64,000 nucleotides of DNA from contig JAAYCS010000189.1 in assembly GCA_012729655.1 (NCBI GenBank), positions 1 to 64,000 of the forward strand, read 5' to 3'. The notes beneath the pieces were generated by a model. The model was not told the origin of the DNA. It was given only the letters and a program-made list of their open reading frames with translations, and made no database searches. Of the stretch, positions 1,026 through 52,301 are shown in pieces (position 1 is the stretch's first letter; each line of letters starts with the position of its first letter). The DNA is from Desulfovibrionales bacterium. Lineage in GTDB: Bacteria; Desulfobacterota; Desulfovibrionia; Desulfovibrionales; Desulfomicrobiaceae. The position numbers and the translations under genes are program-made.

Positions 1026-2030
1026 TCAACATTTCCGGCAGAAATCAACAGACTCGGGAGATATTTCGACCCGGACCAGTTCCCCCACACATGCGCTCAG
1101 ACTCTGAAAGTCCTTCATCCCCAGGCGCACGCATAACGGCAAACCCAGATCCACGGTCATGGAGACGATCCCCGCCTCGAGCTGAACCTGGGTGACAACA
1201 CCATTGTTCAGACCTGGCTGGGCGACCGGTGCAACCTTCACGCGTTCGGGCTCGATGACCACCCGGCCACGCCCTGTGGCGGCAAAGGGAGCCGCGACCC
1301 CGAACCGATCCGTAATCCGGCACCAGGTGTGGCCATCCTGTTCCACAAAATCGCAGGCATATGAATTGGTCAGGGGTCTGGTGGCCAAACGCCCGTCCTC
1401 AAGATAAATGACATTGGGGCACAGGGCCCAGGCCTGATAGCGGTTGTGTGTGCAGAGGATGATGGTCGTCTCCCTGGCATCACGCAGGTCGGCAACGATC
1501 TGTTCAATGACCGATCGATGCTGAGCATCCACACTGGCCGTTGGCTCGTCCAGAAGCAGAATCTTGGTCACGCATGCCAGGGCGCGGGCAATGGCCACGC
1601 GCTGGGTTTCTCCGCCGGAAAGGCGGGGCGCGAAGGTATCGGCCATGTGGGCCAGACCGACCCTGTCCAGGGCCCGCAGCACCCGATCGTCCAGTTCCTT
1701 CCCGGAGTAGCCACGCATTTTCAGGCCGAACCCCACATTTTCCCGTACGCTGCGGCTGAACATGACCGGATGCTGATCCACCAGACCCACCTGCCGCCGC
1801 AAAGGCCTGAGGTATGTTTCGGTCCACACCACGGGCGTATCCTCGAAACGGACCTCGCCATCGTGGGGCGGGCTCAAAAAAGACAGGATCCCGAGCAGAG
1901 TGGATTTTCCAGCCCCGTTGGGGCCCTGCAGGGAATAGGTCAGACCCCGCTCCAGGGAAAGAGCATCGACATCAAGGATCCGCCTGCCGCCATGGGTTAC
2001 CGACACTTGCGAGAGGGTATAGATATTCAT
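1026..2030 (-). CDS. tupC: Tungstate ABC transporter, ATP-binding protein TupC
   Basis: This 334-residue ATPase energises high-affinity tungstate uptake at the cytoplasmic membrane. Walker A GPNGAGKST is at residues 36-44, the ABC signature LSGGE at 137-141, and Walker B ILLLDEP at 157-163. A C-terminal extension of roughly 100 residues resembles the regulatory/oxyanion-binding tail found on some molybdate/tungstate ATPases. The start codon overlaps the stop of tupB by 4 nt, so translation is probably coupled. Tungstate rather than another oxyanion is inferred from the TupA-like binding protein at the head of the operon. Sulfate reducers use tungsten or molybdenum in formate dehydrogenases. 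Confidence 0.87.
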   Translation of the reverse strand: MNIYTLSQVSVTHGGRRILDVDALSLERGLTYSLQGPNGAGKSTLLGILSFLSPPHDGEVRFEDTPVVWTETYLRPLRRQVGLVDQHPVMFSRSVRENVGFGLKMRGYSGKELDDRVLRALDRVGLAHMADTFAPRLSGGETQRVAIARALACVTKILLLDEPTASVDAQHRSVIEQIVADLRDARETTIILCTHNRYQAWALCPNVIYLEDGRLATRPLTNSYACDFVEQDGHTWCRITDRFGVAAPFAATGRGRVVIEPERVKVAPVAQPGLNNGVVTQVQLEAGIVSMTVDLGLPLCVRLGMKDFQSLSACVGELVRVEISPESVDFCRKC

Positions 2031-3791: not shown

Positions 3792-4364
3792 TCATTCCAG
3801 CCGGGTACCGACCGACGGCAGGGCGACGACACTCCCGCGCGCAGAGCGGGGCAGGCGGACATACGGCAGGGAAAAGTCAGACGAGGCCAGAGCCACGCCA
3901 TCGCTGGTCCGCAACACCCTGGCATTGAAGTAAATCTGGCGGCCAACGACCGTATACGTCCCGAGCAGGATGGAATAGGCGTATGCGTCGGCATTGATCC
4001 GGGTCAGATCCCTGGACAGGGCAAAGACCCCACCCCCGGGCAGCACGGCCAGCTGATCCGCCCGCAGTTGGACTTCGGCCAGTGAATAGCCGAGCTGGCT
4101 CAAACGTGAGGCGATCTGTTCCGAAATGAGGCGACCTGCATCATTGGTGATCCCGACATCGGCCGAATCGACAAACGCAGCTGCCAGCATGGGATATGCG
4201 GCCACCCCGCTGCCGGCCAGTTGCCCGTGCAGATGGTCGGCGGCTTTGTAGGACACCTCCATCAGGTTGGGTTCACTGTTCCCTGAATCAGCCGGGGTGA
4301 TGCCCGTCAAAGACGTGCATGCGGCCAGGATGACGAGAAAAATAGCGGCAAAGAATTTGGGCAT
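3792..4364 (-). CDS. FlgO-like outer-membrane lipoprotein
   Basis: The ATG at 4364 has a GGAGGG ribosome site and begins a lipoprotein signal peptide (MPKFFAAIFLVILAAC), with the lipobox LAAC at Cys16. The mature part resembles the FlgO domain: a putative oligomerising segment (LISEQIASRLSQLGYSLAE) followed by beta-rich sequence (YAYSILLGTYTVVGRQIYFNARV). FlgO proteins are outer-membrane components linked to flagella in Vibrio, but no flagellar genes lie in this window, so the role here is open. The upstream in-frame extension in the longest frame has no supporting signal. It is divergently arranged with another lipoprotein gene, 103 nt away. Confidence 0.7.
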   Translation of the reverse strand: MPKFFAAIFLVILAACTSLTGITPADSGNSEPNLMEVSYKAADHLHGQLAGSGVAAYPMLAAAFVDSADVGITNDAGRLISEQIASRLSQLGYSLAEVQLRADQLAVLPGGGVFALSRDLTRINADAYAYSILLGTYTVVGRQIYFNARVLRTSDGVALASSDFSLPYVRLPRSARGSVVALPSVGTRLE

Positions 4365-4467
4365 GATGGACCCTCCGGCAAAAAAATGACATCCGGCACT
4401 TGCAAAGCACACCCTGTGCCAACCCGCTGCGTCTAAAGTTTTTCCCGTTTTCGCCGATTCCTTCAGC

Positions 4468-5181
4468 ATGAACAAAGACACCAAGTTCTTCACGCCCATG
4501 ATCCTGCTGGTCCTGCTGGTTCATAACGCCCTGGTCGGGTGTTCGTCCCTGCGGACGGACTCAAGCAATGCGCGCCTGATGGCCACAGCCCAGGTACCTG
4601 TCCCCACCGGATACCTGCTCAGCACCCAACCCAAGATGCAGGCCCTGCAGCATTGGGACAACCTGGCCGCCAAGGTGGCCGAACACGGCAGCAAAGCGTT
4701 GGGGCATTTTTTCCCCCAGGGCGGGGTTGCGGTCTTTGTCCCTCAAGCTGGCCATACGCCCTTTGCAAAGGCCCTGCGGGAGTCCCTGCTCACCCACCTC
4801 GTGGCGTACGGTGTGCCAACAGCCCCCTCCCCTGAAGGGGCGATTATCCTGGAGGTCAATGTCAATTTTCTCGCCCATGCCCGCACCCTGACCAAGACCG
4901 CGGAGGGTGTGCGGATGTCCCTGGAGCCAGGATTCAGGCAGCTCAAGGACGACCAGGGTGCCTATCGGCCCCTCCCCCTGGTCGCCGAGGAAAGTGGCCA
5001 ATTCTCGGCCCAGACTCCTGACGGCGAAATCCAGGTCAACTCCTCCTTCACCTACCAGGGCTCCTACCTGTATCGGGATTCGAGCATCTTTTATGTCGAG
5101 AGCGCCCAGTGGCCGCATTATGTGGAGCAACCCCCGCCGGGCGCCGTGCAGCTCAAAAAATTCTCGCTGGTTAACAAGTGA
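4468..5181 (+). CDS. Putative lipoprotein of unknown function
   Basis: The 237-residue protein has an N-terminal hydrophobic segment ending in a lipobox (ALVGC, Cys about 25), so it is probably lipid-anchored. I do not recognise the mature domain. It contains SKALGHFFPQGGVAVFVPQAG and a segment FAKALRESLLTHLVAYGV that reads like the oligomerising region of FlgO/TolB-N-like domains, then beta-rich sequence with TPDGEIQVNSSFTYQGSYLYRDSSIFYVES. It is divergent from the FlgO-like lipoprotein gene, sharing a 103-nt intergenic region, which suggests a common cell-envelope task. Confidence 0.7.
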   Translation: MNKDTKFFTPMILLVLLVHNALVGCSSLRTDSSNARLMATAQVPVPTGYLLSTQPKMQALQHWDNLAAKVAEHGSKALGHFFPQGGVAVFVPQAGHTPFAKALRESLLTHLVAYGVPTAPSPEGAIILEVNVNFLAHARTLTKTAEGVRMSLEPGFRQLKDDQGAYRPLPLVAEESGQFSAQTPDGEIQVNSSFTYQGSYLYRDSSIFYVESAQWPHYVEQPPPGAVQLKKFSLVNK

Positions 5182-5264
5182 CCAGACGATTTCCCGCACC
5201 ACCTGCCTTCGGCATCCTTGAGCAGCACGGCTGACGCACCGCGGCAGGGCGGATGAAAACGCGA

Positions 5265-5295
5265 AACGGCCGGACTGCAACCCAGCCCGGCCGTT
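5265..5295. terminator. Hairpin between convergent lipoprotein and nrdD genes
   Basis: AACGGCCGG pairs with CCGGCCGTT across a 13-nt loop. It lies between the 3' ends of the convergent genes at 5181 and 5329 and could end transcription from either side. Confidence 0.6.
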
Positions 5296-5328
5296 CATTG
5301 ATATCTGATTCCCGGATAGTGAGCGACC

Positions 5329-7389
5329 TTACGTCCTGAAGCACGAGGACGGGGAATATTCGACCCGGTCCTTGTACTCTGCCTGCTTGCCCTTGTTCCA
5401 CATCTTCACCGGCCGGTAGTAACCCACAACCCGCGTGTAGACTTCGGTCTCCTGACCGCACCGCGGGCACGTGGACTGCTCCCCGGTCAAGTACCCATGA
5501 TCCTTGCACACCGAAAACGTCGGGGTGATGGAGATATAGGGTATCTTTGTTTCGCTCAGCGCCCTGACAATGAAGCTGCGCAGGGCCGCGACATCCGGCA
5601 CCGACTCGCCCAGAAAGCTGTGGAACACCGTGCCGCCCGTGTACAGCGGCTGAAGCCTGTTCTGATGCTCCAGGGCCGTGAACACATCGGCCGTGTGCCC
5701 CACGGGCAGCAGGGTAGAATTGGTGTAGTACGGGACACCGTTGCCCGAAACCTGGATGTCGGCGTAGAGCTTCTTGTCTATCTTGGCCAGACGGTAACTG
5801 GTTCCCTCGGCAGGAGTGGCCTCCAGATTGTAGAGGTTGCCGGTTTCTTCCTGGAAATGTGCGGTCAGTCCCCGCAGGTAATCAAGGGTTCGGATCATGA
5901 GCCGGATCCCGGCCTCGGTGTCTATGCCCTTGCCCAGCAGGTTCAGACACGCCTCGTGGCCACCCAGCAACCCGATTGTACTGAAGTGGTTGCGGAAGCC
6001 GCTTTTCAGGTACCTCTGGGAAAAAGGGAACATGCCCTTGTCCATGTTGTCCACCACCATCTTGCGCTTGAACTCCAGGGAATCCTTGGCCAAGCCGGCG
6101 TATTCCCCGACCAGATCCAGAAAATCCTCCTCGCCCTGGGCCAGATAGGCCAGCTTGGGCAGGTTCAAGGTCACCACCCCGATGGATCCGGTCAGATCGC
6201 CTGCTCCGAACAGCCCGCCCGTGCGCTTCCTGAGTTCCCGCAGATCCATCTGCAAACGGCAGCACATGGACCGCACATCTTCGGGTTTCAGGTCTGAATT
6301 GATGAAATTCTGGAAATAGGGTGCCCCATACTTGGCCGTGAGCCTCAACAAAAGTTCGCCCACCTCGGATTCCCAGGGAAAATCCGGGGTCACGTTGTAG
6401 GTCGGGATGGGAAAGGAAAAAATCCGTCCGTGGTAGTCACCCTTGCGCATGACTTCCAGAAAGGCCCGATTGATCATCTCCATTTCTGCCGTGAACTCGC
6501 CGTACGTGCTGTCCTGGAGGCTGCCGCCAATAATGACCGCCTCGGCGGCGATATGGGCCGGCGGGGTCAGATCGAAAGTCAGGTTGGTGAAAGGACTTTG
6601 TCCACCCCAACGCGAGGTCGTGTTCAGGTTGAACACGAACTTCTGCATGGCCTGCTTGACCTCGTCGTAACTCAGCCCATCGTGACGGACGAATGGGGCG
6701 AGGTAGGTGTCCACGTTGTTGAACGCCTGGGCCCCGGCCCATTCATTTTGCAACGTGCCAAGAAAATTGACCATCTGGCCCATGGCTGCGTCGAAATGAC
6801 GCGGAGGCCCGGACGAGCAGCGGCCCTCCAGGTTGAAGCCTTCCAGCAACAGGTCGCGCAGAGACCAGCCAGCGCAGTATCCGGCCAGGCCAAAGGACAA
6901 GTCATGAATATGAAAATAGCCGTGCTCATGGGCCTGCCGGATTTCCTCCGGATATTTTTCCAAGGTGTATCTGGCCTGCACAGACCCAGACAGATGCAGC
7001 ATGAGCCCCTGAAACGAGTGGGCCATGTTGGCGTTTTCACTGACCCGCCAGTCGGATTTGTTCAGGTAGCTGTCGATGGTCTCGGTCACATCCAGAAATG
7101 TCTCGGTCTGACTGCGGATCTGACGCCTCTTCTCGCGATAGACGATGTAACGCCGGGCCACATGGTAGAGCCGGGACTCCATCAAAACCTGCTCAACCGT
7201 ATCCTGGACCATTTCCTGCTCAGGGCTGGACAGACCCTCCAGCTTGGCTTCGACCTTGCCGGCAAGACGCTTGGCCAGGAGGGGATCCTTGATTCCGCTC
7301 GCGTTGAGAGACTTCAGGATTGCCTGGGTGATGCGGTCCAAAGACCACGTTTCGATCCGGCCATCACGTTTGACAATATGCTGAGGCAT
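5329..7389 (-). CDS. nrdD: Anaerobic (class III) ribonucleoside-triphosphate reductase
   Basis: This oxygen-sensitive glycyl-radical enzyme makes dNTPs from NTPs. The ATG at 7389 is preceded by GGAGAAT, giving 686 residues. An ATP-cone regulatory domain opens the protein (IVKRDGRIETWSLDRITQAI). The barrel contains SRWGGQSPFTNLTFDLT, characteristic of NrdD. The C-terminus has a Cys-rich metal site (CPRCG) followed by RVVGYYRPV, whose glycine is the expected radical position. It is downstream of the activase gene nrdG, 42 nt away, with a cobalamin riboswitch leading the pair. Confidence 0.95.
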   Translation of the reverse strand: MPQHIVKRDGRIETWSLDRITQAILKSLNASGIKDPLLAKRLAGKVEAKLEGLSSPEQEMVQDTVEQVLMESRLYHVARRYIVYREKRRQIRSQTETFLDVTETIDSYLNKSDWRVSENANMAHSFQGLMLHLSGSVQARYTLEKYPEEIRQAHEHGYFHIHDLSFGLAGYCAGWSLRDLLLEGFNLEGRCSSGPPRHFDAAMGQMVNFLGTLQNEWAGAQAFNNVDTYLAPFVRHDGLSYDEVKQAMQKFVFNLNTTSRWGGQSPFTNLTFDLTPPAHIAAEAVIIGGSLQDSTYGEFTAEMEMINRAFLEVMRKGDYHGRIFSFPIPTYNVTPDFPWESEVGELLLRLTAKYGAPYFQNFINSDLKPEDVRSMCCRLQMDLRELRKRTGGLFGAGDLTGSIGVVTLNLPKLAYLAQGEEDFLDLVGEYAGLAKDSLEFKRKMVVDNMDKGMFPFSQRYLKSGFRNHFSTIGLLGGHEACLNLLGKGIDTEAGIRLMIRTLDYLRGLTAHFQEETGNLYNLEATPAEGTSYRLAKIDKKLYADIQVSGNGVPYYTNSTLLPVGHTADVFTALEHQNRLQPLYTGGTVFHSFLGESVPDVAALRSFIVRALSETKIPYISITPTFSVCKDHGYLTGEQSTCPRCGQETEVYTRVVGYYRPVKMWNKGKQAEYKDRVEYSPSSCFRT

Positions 7390-7431
7390 GTATTCTCCAA
7401 TTTTGGTCGGCAGTACTGGGTTCACGAAAAA

Positions 7432-8055
7432 TCACGTCATCGCCGGAACGAAATCCTGAAACACAAGGGGCAGATCCGACGGGACCTGGGCCCTGGTCCG
7501 GACAAGGTCGGCTTCCGAAAGGCGCGGCACCTTGGTGCAGCGGAAGTAAATCCGATCCGGAAACTCCCGGGCCAACTCGAAGATCTGCTCCAGGCGGCCC
7601 AACGCATCCATGGCCGACATTGTCTGGCCGGTTAAGTCCGGGTACAACTCCCACGGACCTTTCACGTCCACGGCCAGGGTCTGGACCAGGCCGGCACGCA
7701 ACAACCGCTCCAACACCGCCGGAGCAGAGCCGTTGGTATCCAGTTTGATGGGCAGACCGGCTGCGGCCAGATCGTTCAGCAGCTCCTCCAGCCCTTCCAA
7801 AGCTGTCGGCTCGCCTCCCGATAGGGTGAGTCCGTCCAGCCAGCGCCTGCGGCGACGCAAGTCAGTCAACACTCCATCGCGGCCAAGGGTCGGCAGCATC
7901 TGCCAGTTCCAGGCCAGGGTCGGATTGTGGCATGTCGGGCAGCGCAGGTTGCATCCTCCGGCAAAAAGGACGCACACGATCTTTCCCGGCCAGTCGCAAA
8001 GACTTACCGGGACAATGCCGCGCACGCGCTCCCAGGCCGGGGTCGTGTCAGCCAT
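7432..8055 (-). CDS. nrdG: Anaerobic ribonucleotide reductase activating protein (radical SAM)
   Basis: The 207-residue radical-SAM activase uses S-adenosylmethionine and a 4Fe-4S cluster to generate the glycyl radical on NrdD. The cluster motif CNLRCPTC fits CX3CX2C near residue 35, and LSGGEPTALEG matches the SAM-binding GGE motif. The sequence resembles the NrdG/pyruvate-formate-lyase-activase-like group seen in deltaproteobacteria, longer than E. coli NrdG. The ribosome site is weak (GAGAAC), which would suit riboswitch control. Gene order nrdG-nrdD is the reverse of E. coli. Confidence 0.92.
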   Translation of the reverse strand: MADTTPAWERVRGIVPVSLCDWPGKIVCVLFAGGCNLRCPTCHNPTLAWNWQMLPTLGRDGVLTDLRRRRRWLDGLTLSGGEPTALEGLEELLNDLAAAGLPIKLDTNGSAPAVLERLLRAGLVQTLAVDVKGPWELYPDLTGQTMSAMDALGRLEQIFELAREFPDRIYFRCTKVPRLSEADLVRTRAQVPSDLPLVFQDFVPAMT

Positions 8056-8112
8056 GAGTTCTCAACGTGATGATTGGTGAATGTCCCAACACCCTGCATC
8101 CGCGTGCAGAGG

Positions 8113-8277
8113 GTTACGAGAAATGCTTCAGGCAGGTTTTCTGACTCCCCCGCCACACATCGCCTTCCCACCGGAATCGGCAGTGGCATGTGATGCGCGG
8201 CATGTGCAGGGTCACAGCGGCGGGACCGTTCCGGGCTTGCACCGGATTCCCTTACACCCGAAGGTGTTATGCAGAAC
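8113..8277 (-). ncRNA. Cobalamin (B12) riboswitch upstream of nrdG-nrdD
   Basis: On the minus strand the hallmark elements occur in order. AAGGGAATCCGGTGCAAG comes first, then a GCCACTG core at 8181-8187, then a GGTGGGAAGGCG segment, and finally the B12 box AGTCAGAAAACCTGCC at 8131-8146, which matches the AGYCAGGAGACCTGCC consensus closely. The 3' edge is about 60 nt from the nrdG start codon, with a short hairpin (CTGCA...TGCAG) between. Cobalamin binding should turn expression off. Boundaries are approximate. Confidence 0.9.
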
Positions 8278-8283
8278 ATAAGC

Positions 8284-8312
8284 TGTATAATGCAACGCAA
8301 GCCCTGCCGCAA
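8284..8312 (-). promoter_or_regulatory. Probable sigma-70 promoter for the riboswitch-nrdG-nrdD transcript
   Basis: On the minus strand TTGCGG and TATACA are separated by exactly 17 nt, and the -10 box ends a few bases before the 5' edge of the riboswitch. It lies between the stop codon of the upstream MFS gene and the riboswitch. Confidence 0.65.
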
Positions 8313-8358
8313 CCAAAACCTTTTCCACAGGTCTGCTCACAGGGTGAAAACAGCCTTT

Positions 8359-9549
8359 TCAGCCGCTGGCAGATGCATTGTGACGCACAAATACCCTCCC
8401 GCTGACCGGGAGGATAACGGCAAACAGGCCGCCCACAACGAAAAAGGTGACGGGAAGCCCCTGGCCATCAGCAAGACCGCCCACCAAGGGGCCGGTCAGG
8501 ACAAAACCAAGACGGAAAAGCAGGCTGTGCAGGGACAGGATGCTTGCCCTGTTGCTGCGCTCGCTGGCGTTCTGCAGGCGGGCGCGCATGAGAGGCCCCT
8601 GCAGCCCGCGCATGGCCGTCAGCAGATAGTAAAAGAGGAACCCGCCTGGCGCCGCAGTCAGCCCCAGGCCAGCATAGGCCGTAACGACAAGGACGAAAAA
8701 AAGGATGTTCATGCCTGCCAGGCCCAGGCAGGACTGCACCCGATGGCTGTTTGCCGCTGCCAGGGCCACCACCAGATTGGCCCCGGCCCATGCCGGGCCG
8801 AACCAGTCCAGGGGCACTCCACAGTACTGCATGTACGGTTGGATGAGCCAGACCAGGTAAAACGAGGCCAGCCCCAGAAGCATGCCATGCAGCATGGTCG
8901 AGCGGATGCCCGAATTTTCGCGCAGGGCGTACCTGCATACGCCCAGGGCCTCGGAAAGATGGGATGTGACCGGCCTCAAGGTCTTGGCCCGGGGCTCGTG
9001 CAGAGTCAGGCACAGGCCAAGGGCCAGCACCCATACGCCGGTCTGGGCCACAAAAGGCAGGAGGGGGGATGTGCTGTACATGATCCCTGCAGCGAGGGCC
9101 CCGGCAGCCTCCCCACCCTGGGCCCAGCTCACCATCCGACCGTCGCAACGGGTGTAGAGCTCAACACGGTTCTCGGCCTGCAGGATCTCAAAGAGCAAGG
9201 CCGTATCCGAACCGCTGATGAATGCATAGGACACGCCCAAAAGCAATTCAGCTCCCAAGACCCCCCAAAACGAGGTCGCCACAAGATACCAGCCCCACCC
9301 GAGGATGCCGAGGATACAGGCCACAATCAAAGCGCGGCGATATCCCAGTCTGTCGCTGACATACCCGGAAGGGTACTCCATGACCACGCTGGCTGCCGAA
9401 AAAAAGGCCTGCAGCATCAGTATCTCGGTAAGGGACAGACCGATCCGGTCCTTCCAGAAGATGGTGATCACGGCCATGGGGAAAAGGGTCATCTTCAGGG
9501 CCGCGAACACGTTCAACTTGAGAATGGAAGCCGACAGGACTGTGCTCAT
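8359..9549 (-). CDS. Major facilitator superfamily transporter
   Basis: The protein of about 396 residues has 10-12 predicted membrane helices. The MFS loop 2-3 signature is seen as SGYVSDRLGYRRALIVA, with the conserved D-R-x-G-RR pattern. The ATG at 9549 is preferred because GGGGCG precedes it; the longer frame has no such site. The substrate is unknown. The sequence resembles small-molecule/drug exporters of Desulfovibrio. It lies upstream of the nrdG riboswitch on the same strand but is separated from it by a promoter, so it is probably an independent unit. Confidence 0.85.
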   Translation of the reverse strand: MSTVLSASILKLNVFAALKMTLFPMAVITIFWKDRIGLSLTEILMLQAFFSAASVVMEYPSGYVSDRLGYRRALIVACILGILGWGWYLVATSFWGVLGAELLLGVSYAFISGSDTALLFEILQAENRVELYTRCDGRMVSWAQGGEAAGALAAGIMYSTSPLLPFVAQTGVWVLALGLCLTLHEPRAKTLRPVTSHLSEALGVCRYALRENSGIRSTMLHGMLLGLASFYLVWLIQPYMQYCGVPLDWFGPAWAGANLVVALAAANSHRVQSCLGLAGMNILFFVLVVTAYAGLGLTAAPGGFLFYYLLTAMRGLQGPLMRARLQNASERSNRASILSLHSLLFRLGFVLTGPLVGGLADGQGLPVTFFVVGGLFAVILPVSGRVFVRHNASASG

Positions 9550-50773: not shown

Positions 50774-51592
50774 TCACCGCGATGTGTCTTCGCCGTGACG
50801 ATCCCTGCCGCAAAGCAGAAATCCTAAAATCGGCCGGCACTTTTCCGCGCATGGGGCATAAAACTCGCCGTGGCTGCGGGTGCCGGAGCGGTTCTCGCGG
50901 CCCACGTAGAATTCGGCCAGCCCCACGGGTATGAGCCCATGGGTGGCCGCAAAATGCAGGAGCTTGGGCGCGCAGCATTCGCCCGTGCCCGTGGGCATGC
51001 CCGAACCGAGGAAGATCTCGGCCAGGGAACGGGTCTGGCCCCGTAAATTGGTCAGCCAGTAGAGATCGAAGATGCGGGCCATGAGGCCTTGGGAGAGTTG
51101 CCGTCGCTCCGCCATCAAACGAACACGGACCGGAGCAGTGGAAGCGAGAAGGTCTATCTCGCGGGTCAGGGCCTTGATGCGCGGCTCATCGCTTTGGATG
51201 ACCCGTTCGAATGCGGCCGGATCGAGAATCGGAGGAACCCAGCCCGGCACCTCCCAGACCCCGTTGTACTGACCGGAAAAAGCCTTCAGCACGTGTTCCC
51301 GCCCGGAATCGTCGCGGGCGAGCAGCACCCCGAACATCTGGCCCCGGGCCGGGCCGGACAGATAGCCCAGATGCAAGCGCGGGTCGTCATCCATACCCAG
51401 GCCAATGCTTCTGTGCCTCTCCATGTCGGCCAGGAGTTCCCGCGCCGCGTCCAGAGCCGGGGCGGCGGGCAGGCAGTGCTCCTGCCCGCAATCCCGGCAG
51501 TATCCGATGCAGTCGAGGGCGTCTTTTTCCATGGGCAATCCTGTACTGGGCGCGGGCCAGCCCGGTCCAGTCCCGAAGGGGCGTTGCTTCAT
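50774..51592 (-). CDS. Stand-alone homologue of the N-terminal domain of some RluA-type pseudouridine synthases
   Basis: The protein of about 272 residues starts with a Cys-rich patch (CIGYCRDCGQEHC). From about residue 60 it reads SGPARGQMFGVLLARDDSG, FSGQYNGVWEVPGWVPPI, a charged helix (LMAERRQLSQGLMARIFDLYWLTNLRGQTRSL) and GTGECCAPKLLHFAATHGLIPVGLAEFYVG. From memory, the helix and GTGECCAPKLL block match the extra N-terminal domain found on certain gammaproteobacterial RluA-family enzymes. No pseudouridine synthase catalytic domain follows. The role is unknown. Confidence 0.6.
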   Translation of the reverse strand: MKQRPFGTGPGWPAPSTGLPMEKDALDCIGYCRDCGQEHCLPAAPALDAARELLADMERHRSIGLGMDDDPRLHLGYLSGPARGQMFGVLLARDDSGREHVLKAFSGQYNGVWEVPGWVPPILDPAAFERVIQSDEPRIKALTREIDLLASTAPVRVRLMAERRQLSQGLMARIFDLYWLTNLRGQTRSLAEIFLGSGMPTGTGECCAPKLLHFAATHGLIPVGLAEFYVGRENRSGTRSHGEFYAPCAEKCRPILGFLLCGRDRHGEDTSR

Positions 51593-51695
51593 CCGCACAT
51601 CCCTACTGTCCTCAATAGAGAAGCCGCCGCACGCAGACCTTTACACTGAAGAATCCATAATCTATTTCTGAACTCAACATTCTCGCGGAGTGACA

Positions 51696-52016
51696 ATGCA
51701 GATACTTCTCATTCTTTCGAGCAACGATCCGGAAATAAAATGGAACGCAGTCAGGTTCGGCAACTTTTTGCTGGCCGAAGGCGAGGACGTCACCCTCTTC
51801 CTGAATGGTCCGGCGGTCGATCTGTATGCGGGTGACAGCGAGGCCTTCCCCTTGGCAGAGCAGGCCAAACTCTTCGCCTTGAGTGACGGGGTCCTCGCCG
51901 CCTGAGGTAAATGCCTGGGCGTCCACGGTGTGGACGCGAGCGAACATGTCAGGCTGTCGAACATGAAGTTCCTTTATGAGCAGGTCAAACTGGCAGACAG
52001 GATCATCAATTTTTAG
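51696..52016 (+). CDS. DsrE-family selenoprotein (UGA-encoded Sec at residue 70)
   Basis: The ATG at 51696 follows GGAG (51687-51690). The frame encodes a DsrE-like domain (MQILLILSSNDPEIKWNAV, then FALSDGVLAA) and meets TGA at 51903. It continues in frame as GKCLGVHGVDASEHVRLSNMKFLYEQVKLADRIINF to TAG at 52014. Related DsrE proteins have Cys in ...AACGKC..., so the UGA replaces a redox Cys, giving UGKC (Sec70, Cys73). A hairpin GCGTCCAC-GGT-GTGGACGC (51919-51937) starts 13 nt after the UGA with a GGU loop, like bacterial SECIS elements. The product has 106 residues. The Sec and selenium-insertion genes are not in the window. Confidence 0.85.
51919..51937 (+). promoter_or_regulatory. Bacterial SECIS-like hairpin
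   Basis: An 8-bp perfect stem with apical GGU, beginning 13 nt and reaching its loop 21 nt after the UGA at 51903-51905. These values fit known bacterial SECIS elements, including the GGU loop of E. coli fdhF. Confidence 0.75.
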
Positions 52017-52046: not shown

Positions 52047-52301
52047 TCATCTTCCGAGCAGGTTCCCCCCGGAGCACCAAACGCCCGGTCTGCAGATGGG
52101 GAAGACCGGCACGGTGACGTCCAGCATACTCCGTGCAATGGCCTTTACTGCGAAATGCACCACCGCGGTGGCGGCCACGGCCGTCTCGATGGGAAAGAAG
52201 AGGGCCATGACCGGGGTCAGCACAGTGCCCAGGCCAAAGCCCGAAAAGAGGGTCAGCCCGGAAACGGCCAGGCTGGACAGACAGATGACAAGATATTCCA
52301 C
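52047..52301 (-). pseudogene. Truncated TauE/SafE-family transporter
   Basis: An 84-residue remnant. It opens like a TauE/SafE sulfite/organosulfonate exporter (MEYLVICLSSLAVSGLTLFSGFGLGTVLTPVMALFFPIETAVAATAVVHFAVKAIARSML), with a good AAGGAGATAAA site before its GTG start. It then reads unrelated residues and stops, against about 250 residues for a full protein. The 3' part appears deleted up to the DsrE selenoprotein gene, 30 nt away. It lies 10 nt after chrA and may once have been in that operon. Confidence 0.7.

Follow-up and report, generated by a model that had tools for sequence, protein, structure and literature searches.

A TGA-interrupted DsrE-like frame in Desulfomicrobium is predicted to encode a selenoprotein of a family whose second cysteine is often lost

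The 64,000-nt stretch of a Desulfomicrobium draft genome analyzed here (the window: positions 1 to 64,000 of contig JAAYCS010000189.1) contains, at positions 51696 to 52016 of the plus strand, what is almost certainly a single intact gene for a 106-residue selenoprotein of the DsrE/YchN fold, judging from its sequence and those of its relatives. Standard gene calling leaves this gene as a fragment of only 69 to 71 residues. Predictions of such selenoproteins in related sulfate reducers go back to 2006; the gene in the window is real and not new in kind. Possible additions to the literature are the apparent dispensability of the second Cys of the UxxC motif, a covariation between residues 76 and 80, and a neighborhood with TsoA, the last of which may already be contained in Haft and Tolstoy 2025, reportedly the paper defining the Tso selenoproteins.

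The frame opens with an ATG and comprises 106 codons followed by a TAG stop (52014 to 52016), its sole interruption being a TGA at codon 70 (51903 to 51905); read through, it yields 69 residues, the one TGA, and a further 36 residues. This is the arrangement described in the initial annotation, in which AACGKC becomes AA-U-GKC, and its frame, coordinates, and motif are all reproduced here. The presumptive Sec70 occupies the first position of the UGKC motif, whose second residue, Cys73 (51912 to 51914), is not conserved across the family. A Shine-Dalgarno-like GGAG, read directly from the sequence, lies 5 nt 5′ of the ATG (51687 to 51690, plus strand), and many relatives have GGAG or a similar motif near the same place; scans of the locus for promoters and terminators found nothing. 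The mechanical open reading frame ends at 51905, at the TGA, in agreement with the earlier description of a truncated, 70-residue fragment. That reading through completes the domain, also an earlier claim, is borne out by the Pfam DsrE model, which matches the read-through product over residues 3 to 106 at 32.6 bits (cut-off, 22.7), versus 13.3 bits for the 69-residue fragment alone and no match for the 36-residue tail alone. A match to PF02635 above its gathering score, together with a predicted Sec in UxxC (here UGKC), places the product among the DsrE-like selenoproteins; no NCBIfam model matches it.

An AlphaFold model of the whole product, built from an alignment of 84 rows, has a mean pLDDT of 97.4 and a pTM of 0.90. 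In this model, a strand ends at residue 70 and a helix starts at residue 71, such that Sec70 is predicted to sit where strand gives way to helix, at the first Cys of the conserved pair of YchN; the part of the product after the UGA is modeled as two helices and two strands of the domain. The nearest solved folds found by a structure search with the model are DsrE/DsrF-like proteins (including archaeal DsrE-like proteins), DsrEFH, and YchN. When a sequence profile was compared to solved structures at an E-value of 0.01, only YchN was recovered (E = 4e-7), one of its Cys residues aligning with Sec70, and the DsrE of 2HY5 and TusD were not matched. YchN of Escherichia coli (1JX7) resembles the model with a TM score of 0.86 by query but has Cys rather than Sec and shares only ~18% identity with the window protein; we know of no link between YchN and selenium. 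The DsrE subunit of DsrEFH (2HY5, chain A; TM 0.78, E = 2.4e-6) and TusD have the same fold and a single essential active-site Cys that carries sulfur, although there the protein belongs to a three-gene heterohexamer, whereas the window gene stands alone, and no dsrEFH/tusBCD gene trio was found at its locus. By analogy of fold and family, Sec70 would be the counterpart of DsrE Cys78. The same genome also encodes a two-domain Cys protein whose DsrE-like domain has CGTC instead of UGKC, with a weak local match to the window protein (E = 0.018).

Homologues bear directly on how the TGA is to be read. The gene occurs in 27 of 101 related genomes. TGA stands at the Sec codon in all 34 matches that span it; one further match is a downstream fragment. 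A scan of GTDB species contigs yielded 53 loci, mostly with TGA and some with Cys, the latter chiefly in Nitrospirae, and 79 genomes of a 395-genome phylum sample had a match, whereas viral contigs yielded only three weak partial relatives. Pooled, these amount to 131 distinct homologues from Desulfobacterota and Nitrospirae, of which 114 have Sec, 17 (from Nitrospirae and a few others) have Cys, and none has any other residue at the site; a conserved, in-frame UGA position that homologues occupy with either Sec or Cys is the pattern expected of a bacterial selenoprotein. On the tree, which is built from few columns and has many weak forks, the Sec/Cys label changes six times. From these counts, DsrE-like selenoproteins appear to be widespread in Desulfobacterota, not rare. 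Among three observations that the initial annotation had named as speaking against a selenoprotein were the lack of a Cys aligned with the UGA and a homologous protein truly ending at that codon; the 17 Cys members dispose of the former, and no homologue ending at the Sec codon was found among the 101 related genomes or the 395-genome sample.

Two readings would deny the gene its second half. In one, translation yields just the short protein of 69 residues and the remainder is untranslated, which would accord with TGA acting as a normal stop at other genes of the same genomes. However, dN/dS among 14 close members is 0.113 before the UGA and 0.185 after it, versus 1.35 downstream when the frame is shifted by one, which points to purifying selection on the codons 3′ of the UGA. 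Cys homologues, moreover, continue past the site with the same length, and the short product would forfeit two helices and two strands from a domain whose fold is predicted with confidence, making this reading very improbable. In the other, a pseudogene or a sequencing error truncates an ordinary DsrE gene. Standard gene calling, which returns only the short fragment, could be taken this way, but dozens of separately assembled genomes have this TGA at the identical codon, and the selection downstream, together with a covarying stem (below), tells against it; already refuted by the homologues, this reading is scarcely credible. A decoded UGA thus remains the preferred reading. It is not a matter of general recoding, since several members of the family terminate with TGA as well, such that the internal and the terminal TGA of one gene are read differently.

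Just downstream of the TGA lies a predicted apical stem-loop of a bacterial SECIS element (bSECIS), recognized by folding and covariation: an 8-bp stem on the plus strand (51919 to 51926 paired with 51930 to 51937) closed by a GGU loop (51927 to 51929), with 13 nt between TGA and stem, 21 nt between UGA and loop, and a hairpin energy of −12.6 kcal/mol. Stem, loop, and spacing are as the initial annotation had them, including its expectation that folding would place the UGA 16 to 37 nt before the loop. All four values lie within published bSECIS constraints, i.e., a loop of 3 to 9 nt with G in its first two positions, a stem of 4 to 16 bp, a distance of 16 to 37 nt from the UGA, and a minimum free energy at or below −7.5 (PMC13188914). 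Taken alone, the hairpin is unremarkable (z = −1.4), and synonymous resampling produces an equally stable one in 11% of trials, since GC-rich codons for conserved residues favor pairing. As stability in the single sequence is not significant, the SECIS conclusion rests on the comparison of homologues, and it is their conservation and covariation that make the predicted stem-loop significant. Among 63 Sec members, 98.4% of stem cells are paired (89.5% in shuffles), 40 are changed on both sides (14.9 in shuffles), and the covariation score is 0.274, versus 0.120 for shuffles and at most 0.072 for slid versions of the stem; one pair alone occurs as C-G in 27 members, A-U in 24, and G-C in 5. The protein shows a matching covariation between residues 76 and 80, in the combinations I-D, L-E, L-K, and V-D (mutual information of 0.78 bits, reached in 0 of 1,000 shuffles), with codons such as AUC/GAU, CUC/GAG, and CUU/AAG, the choice that pairing in the outer part of the stem would require. 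Of the 114 Sec members, 84 form a strict, uninterrupted hairpin of −7.5 kcal/mol or lower, as do 0 of the 17 Cys members, and some of the Sec members failing this test have a long stem with a mismatch. As such, the predicted stem accumulates compensatory changes in Sec members and is missing from Cys homologues.

The genome also has most of the machinery for selenocysteine insertion. The draft (2.84 Mb in 226 contigs, 88.6% complete) contains selA, selB, and selC (the tRNA-Sec, at 83.4 bits), as well as two full-length formate dehydrogenase genes (fdhA), each with one in-frame TGA. Of the four genes that the initial annotation had proposed to look for, three are accordingly present, and the absence of selB or selC, which it held to be damaging, did not materialize; the fourth, selD, was not recovered from this incomplete draft. 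This absence is probably a gap in the draft, because selD is full-length in 13 of 15 congeners, each copy with its own in-frame TGA. A selD-like match (L015; 36.8 bits) was rejected, as matches of the same level occur in 14 of the 15 congeners, mostly beside a true selD. With selA, selB, and selC present, Cys aligning with the UGA, and no homologue ending there, the claim of a UGA-encoded selenoprotein of the DsrE family is supported.

From conservation and machinery, SelB carrying Sec-tRNA(Sec) would recognize the stem-loop just 3′ of codon 70, the UGA would be decoded as Sec, and the protein would end at the TAG. How the product would then act is suggested by which of its residues are constant. 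The earlier description of a CxxC-like pair holds for the UGKC of the window gene but not as a constant feature of the family, whose members often lack the second Cys but retain Sec: this position is Cys in 93 of the 114 Sec members and L, S, A, or R in the other 21, with ~10 changes on the tree. Among those 21, 12 have another Cys somewhere and 9 have none, the Desulfomicrobium copy L023 being one of the latter, such that an intramolecular selenenylsulfide is impossible in these nine. The second Cys thus appears dispensable, and the constant element is Sec alone, which favors, with moderate confidence, a lone-selenolate carrier or transferase working with an external reductant. Our best guess, argued from fold and residue conservation, is that the selenolate would be the sole catalytic nucleophile, carrying or transferring a chalcogen (sulfane sulfur, possibly selenium) or, alternatively, reducing such chalcogen species with the help of a partner protein or an external thiol, with Cys73 as an optional resolving thiol. 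This role would resemble that of Cys78 in DsrE and TusD, a single essential residue: in DsrE, Cys78 alone carries sulfur, and in TusD, it is the only Cys essential for transfer (PMC3397948). We regard the selenoprotein identity and this lone-Sec carrier mechanism, taken jointly, as on balance probable. Lineages that keep Sec without the second Cys, some of them without any Cys, make the question of a lone-selenolate chalcogen carrier testable.

What counts against the carrier view is the very frequency of the motif, in that 93 of 114 Sec members have UxxC and 15 of 17 Cys members have CxxC, which is compatible with a redox pair of the selenenylsulfide type. A UxxC thiol/disulfide oxidoreductase with a Sec70-Cys73 bond, which is also how published surveys list the family, is therefore a reading to be taken seriously but one that we find rather improbable: the second Cys has been replaced on several lineages in which Sec was retained, nine Sec members have no Cys to pair with it, and the fold is that of DsrE/YchN, not of thioredoxin. 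A role for the selenoprotein in binding or reducing metalloids or oxyanions (arsenic, selenium), as part of a Tso-like detoxification system, would draw on the genomic surroundings of the family. On its deeper branches, in 16 of 129 distinct loci, TsoA (NF045695) lies within ~2.3 kb on the same strand, mostly directly upstream (a representative match scores 224.5 bits; cut-off, 170); an ArsR-type regulator precedes TsoA in the inspected loci and is TsoR (NF045707) in the one scanned; and a Sec-type ArsM-like methyltransferase comes next at three of the loci. Cys forms from Nitrospirae, for their part, are flanked by an ArsR-type regulator on one side and a TauE/SafE permease on the other. However, TsoA is absent from the whole draft genome of the window, and most of the copies in Desulfovibrionales lack a conserved partner, which makes a metalloid role unlikely for the window protein. 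Because TsoA is missing from this genome, the link is a lead, not evidence for the window copy, even if its recurrence suggests a functional neighborhood for the family. Returning to the lone-selenolate carrier, a fuller version of it is conceivable but tentative, in which a Sec-only DsrE has Sec as its only indispensable chalcogen nucleophile, passes through a selenenyl-sulfide or perselenide intermediate, and has, in part of the phylum, been recruited into Tso-type, ArsR-regulated operons with TsoA and Sec-type ArsM.

The three loci with an ArsM-like gene (L094, ~7445 to 9100; L100, ~7407 to 9120; and L102, ~4270 to 6110) each comprise an ArsR-type regulator, TsoA (with LULAEC), DsrE (UGxC), and the ArsM-like gene (SWAGU), apparently three selenoprotein genes in one operon. 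At two other loci (L088, 7513 to 8318, and L125), a Sec TsoA is directly 5′ of a Cys DsrE, and the two Sec sites are therefore gained or lost independently.

In the window itself, a MATE efflux gene and a 274-residue open reading frame lie 5′ of the selenoprotein gene and a weak TauE fragment, chrA (a chromate transporter), chrB, and a rhodanese gene lie 3′, all on the other strand. The sulfur/oxyanion context seen in the initial annotation stands as far as rhodanese, chrB, and chrA are real genes, but the Pfam match of the TauE fragment is partial and below cut-off (19.2 bits). No conserved neighbors were found for the Desulfovibrionales copies, nor any functional partner in the genomic context of the window; since the TauE/chromate context is local and not common to relatives, it says little about function and was dropped as evidence. 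The TauE/SafE-like fragment (52047 to 52301, minus strand; 84 residues), the second half of which has no match, is a truncated permease gene, and the adjoining 274-residue frame (50774 to 51598, minus strand) matches no Pfam or NCBIfam model.

DsrE-like UxxC selenoproteins were predicted in the Sargasso Sea in 2005 (PMC1088965), in Desulfovibrio (now Nitratidesulfovibrio) vulgaris in 2006 (PMC1794560), and in further ocean samples (PMC2398784), and a 2026 review lists the family (PF02635, UxxC; sequence WP_014524487.1) in its Table 1 (PMC13188914). The initial annotation was thus right that such proteins had been reported from deltaproteobacteria. The window protein shares with them the Pfam family and a UxxC with Sec first, and Nitratidesulfovibrio homologues in our set have the same UGKC motif. 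It differs in its occurrence in Desulfomicrobium, and the UxxC of the literature fails where lineages have lost the second Cys.

Several copies elsewhere have been duplicated or disrupted. In two congeners (L037 and L045), the Sec codon, stem-loop, and C terminus are kept, but a replacement or frameshift affects the N-terminal third; these are probably decaying duplicates. Copies at L080 (8001 to 8314), L114, and L124 have extra stops or frame changes besides the TGA and are probably pseudogenes. At L018 (~1180 to 1310, minus strand), a duplicated 3′ fragment of the selenoprotein gene lies ~200 nt downstream of an intact copy, and a 216-residue frame 3′ of the copy in genome G073, at first suspected to be YedF, is instead a piece of this gene, derived from a duplication of its 3′ part. 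Tandem DsrE genes occur at four loci: those at L133 (3001 to 3750), L137 (3001 to 3671), and L156 pair one Cys with one Sec form, and at L168 both genes are of the Sec form.
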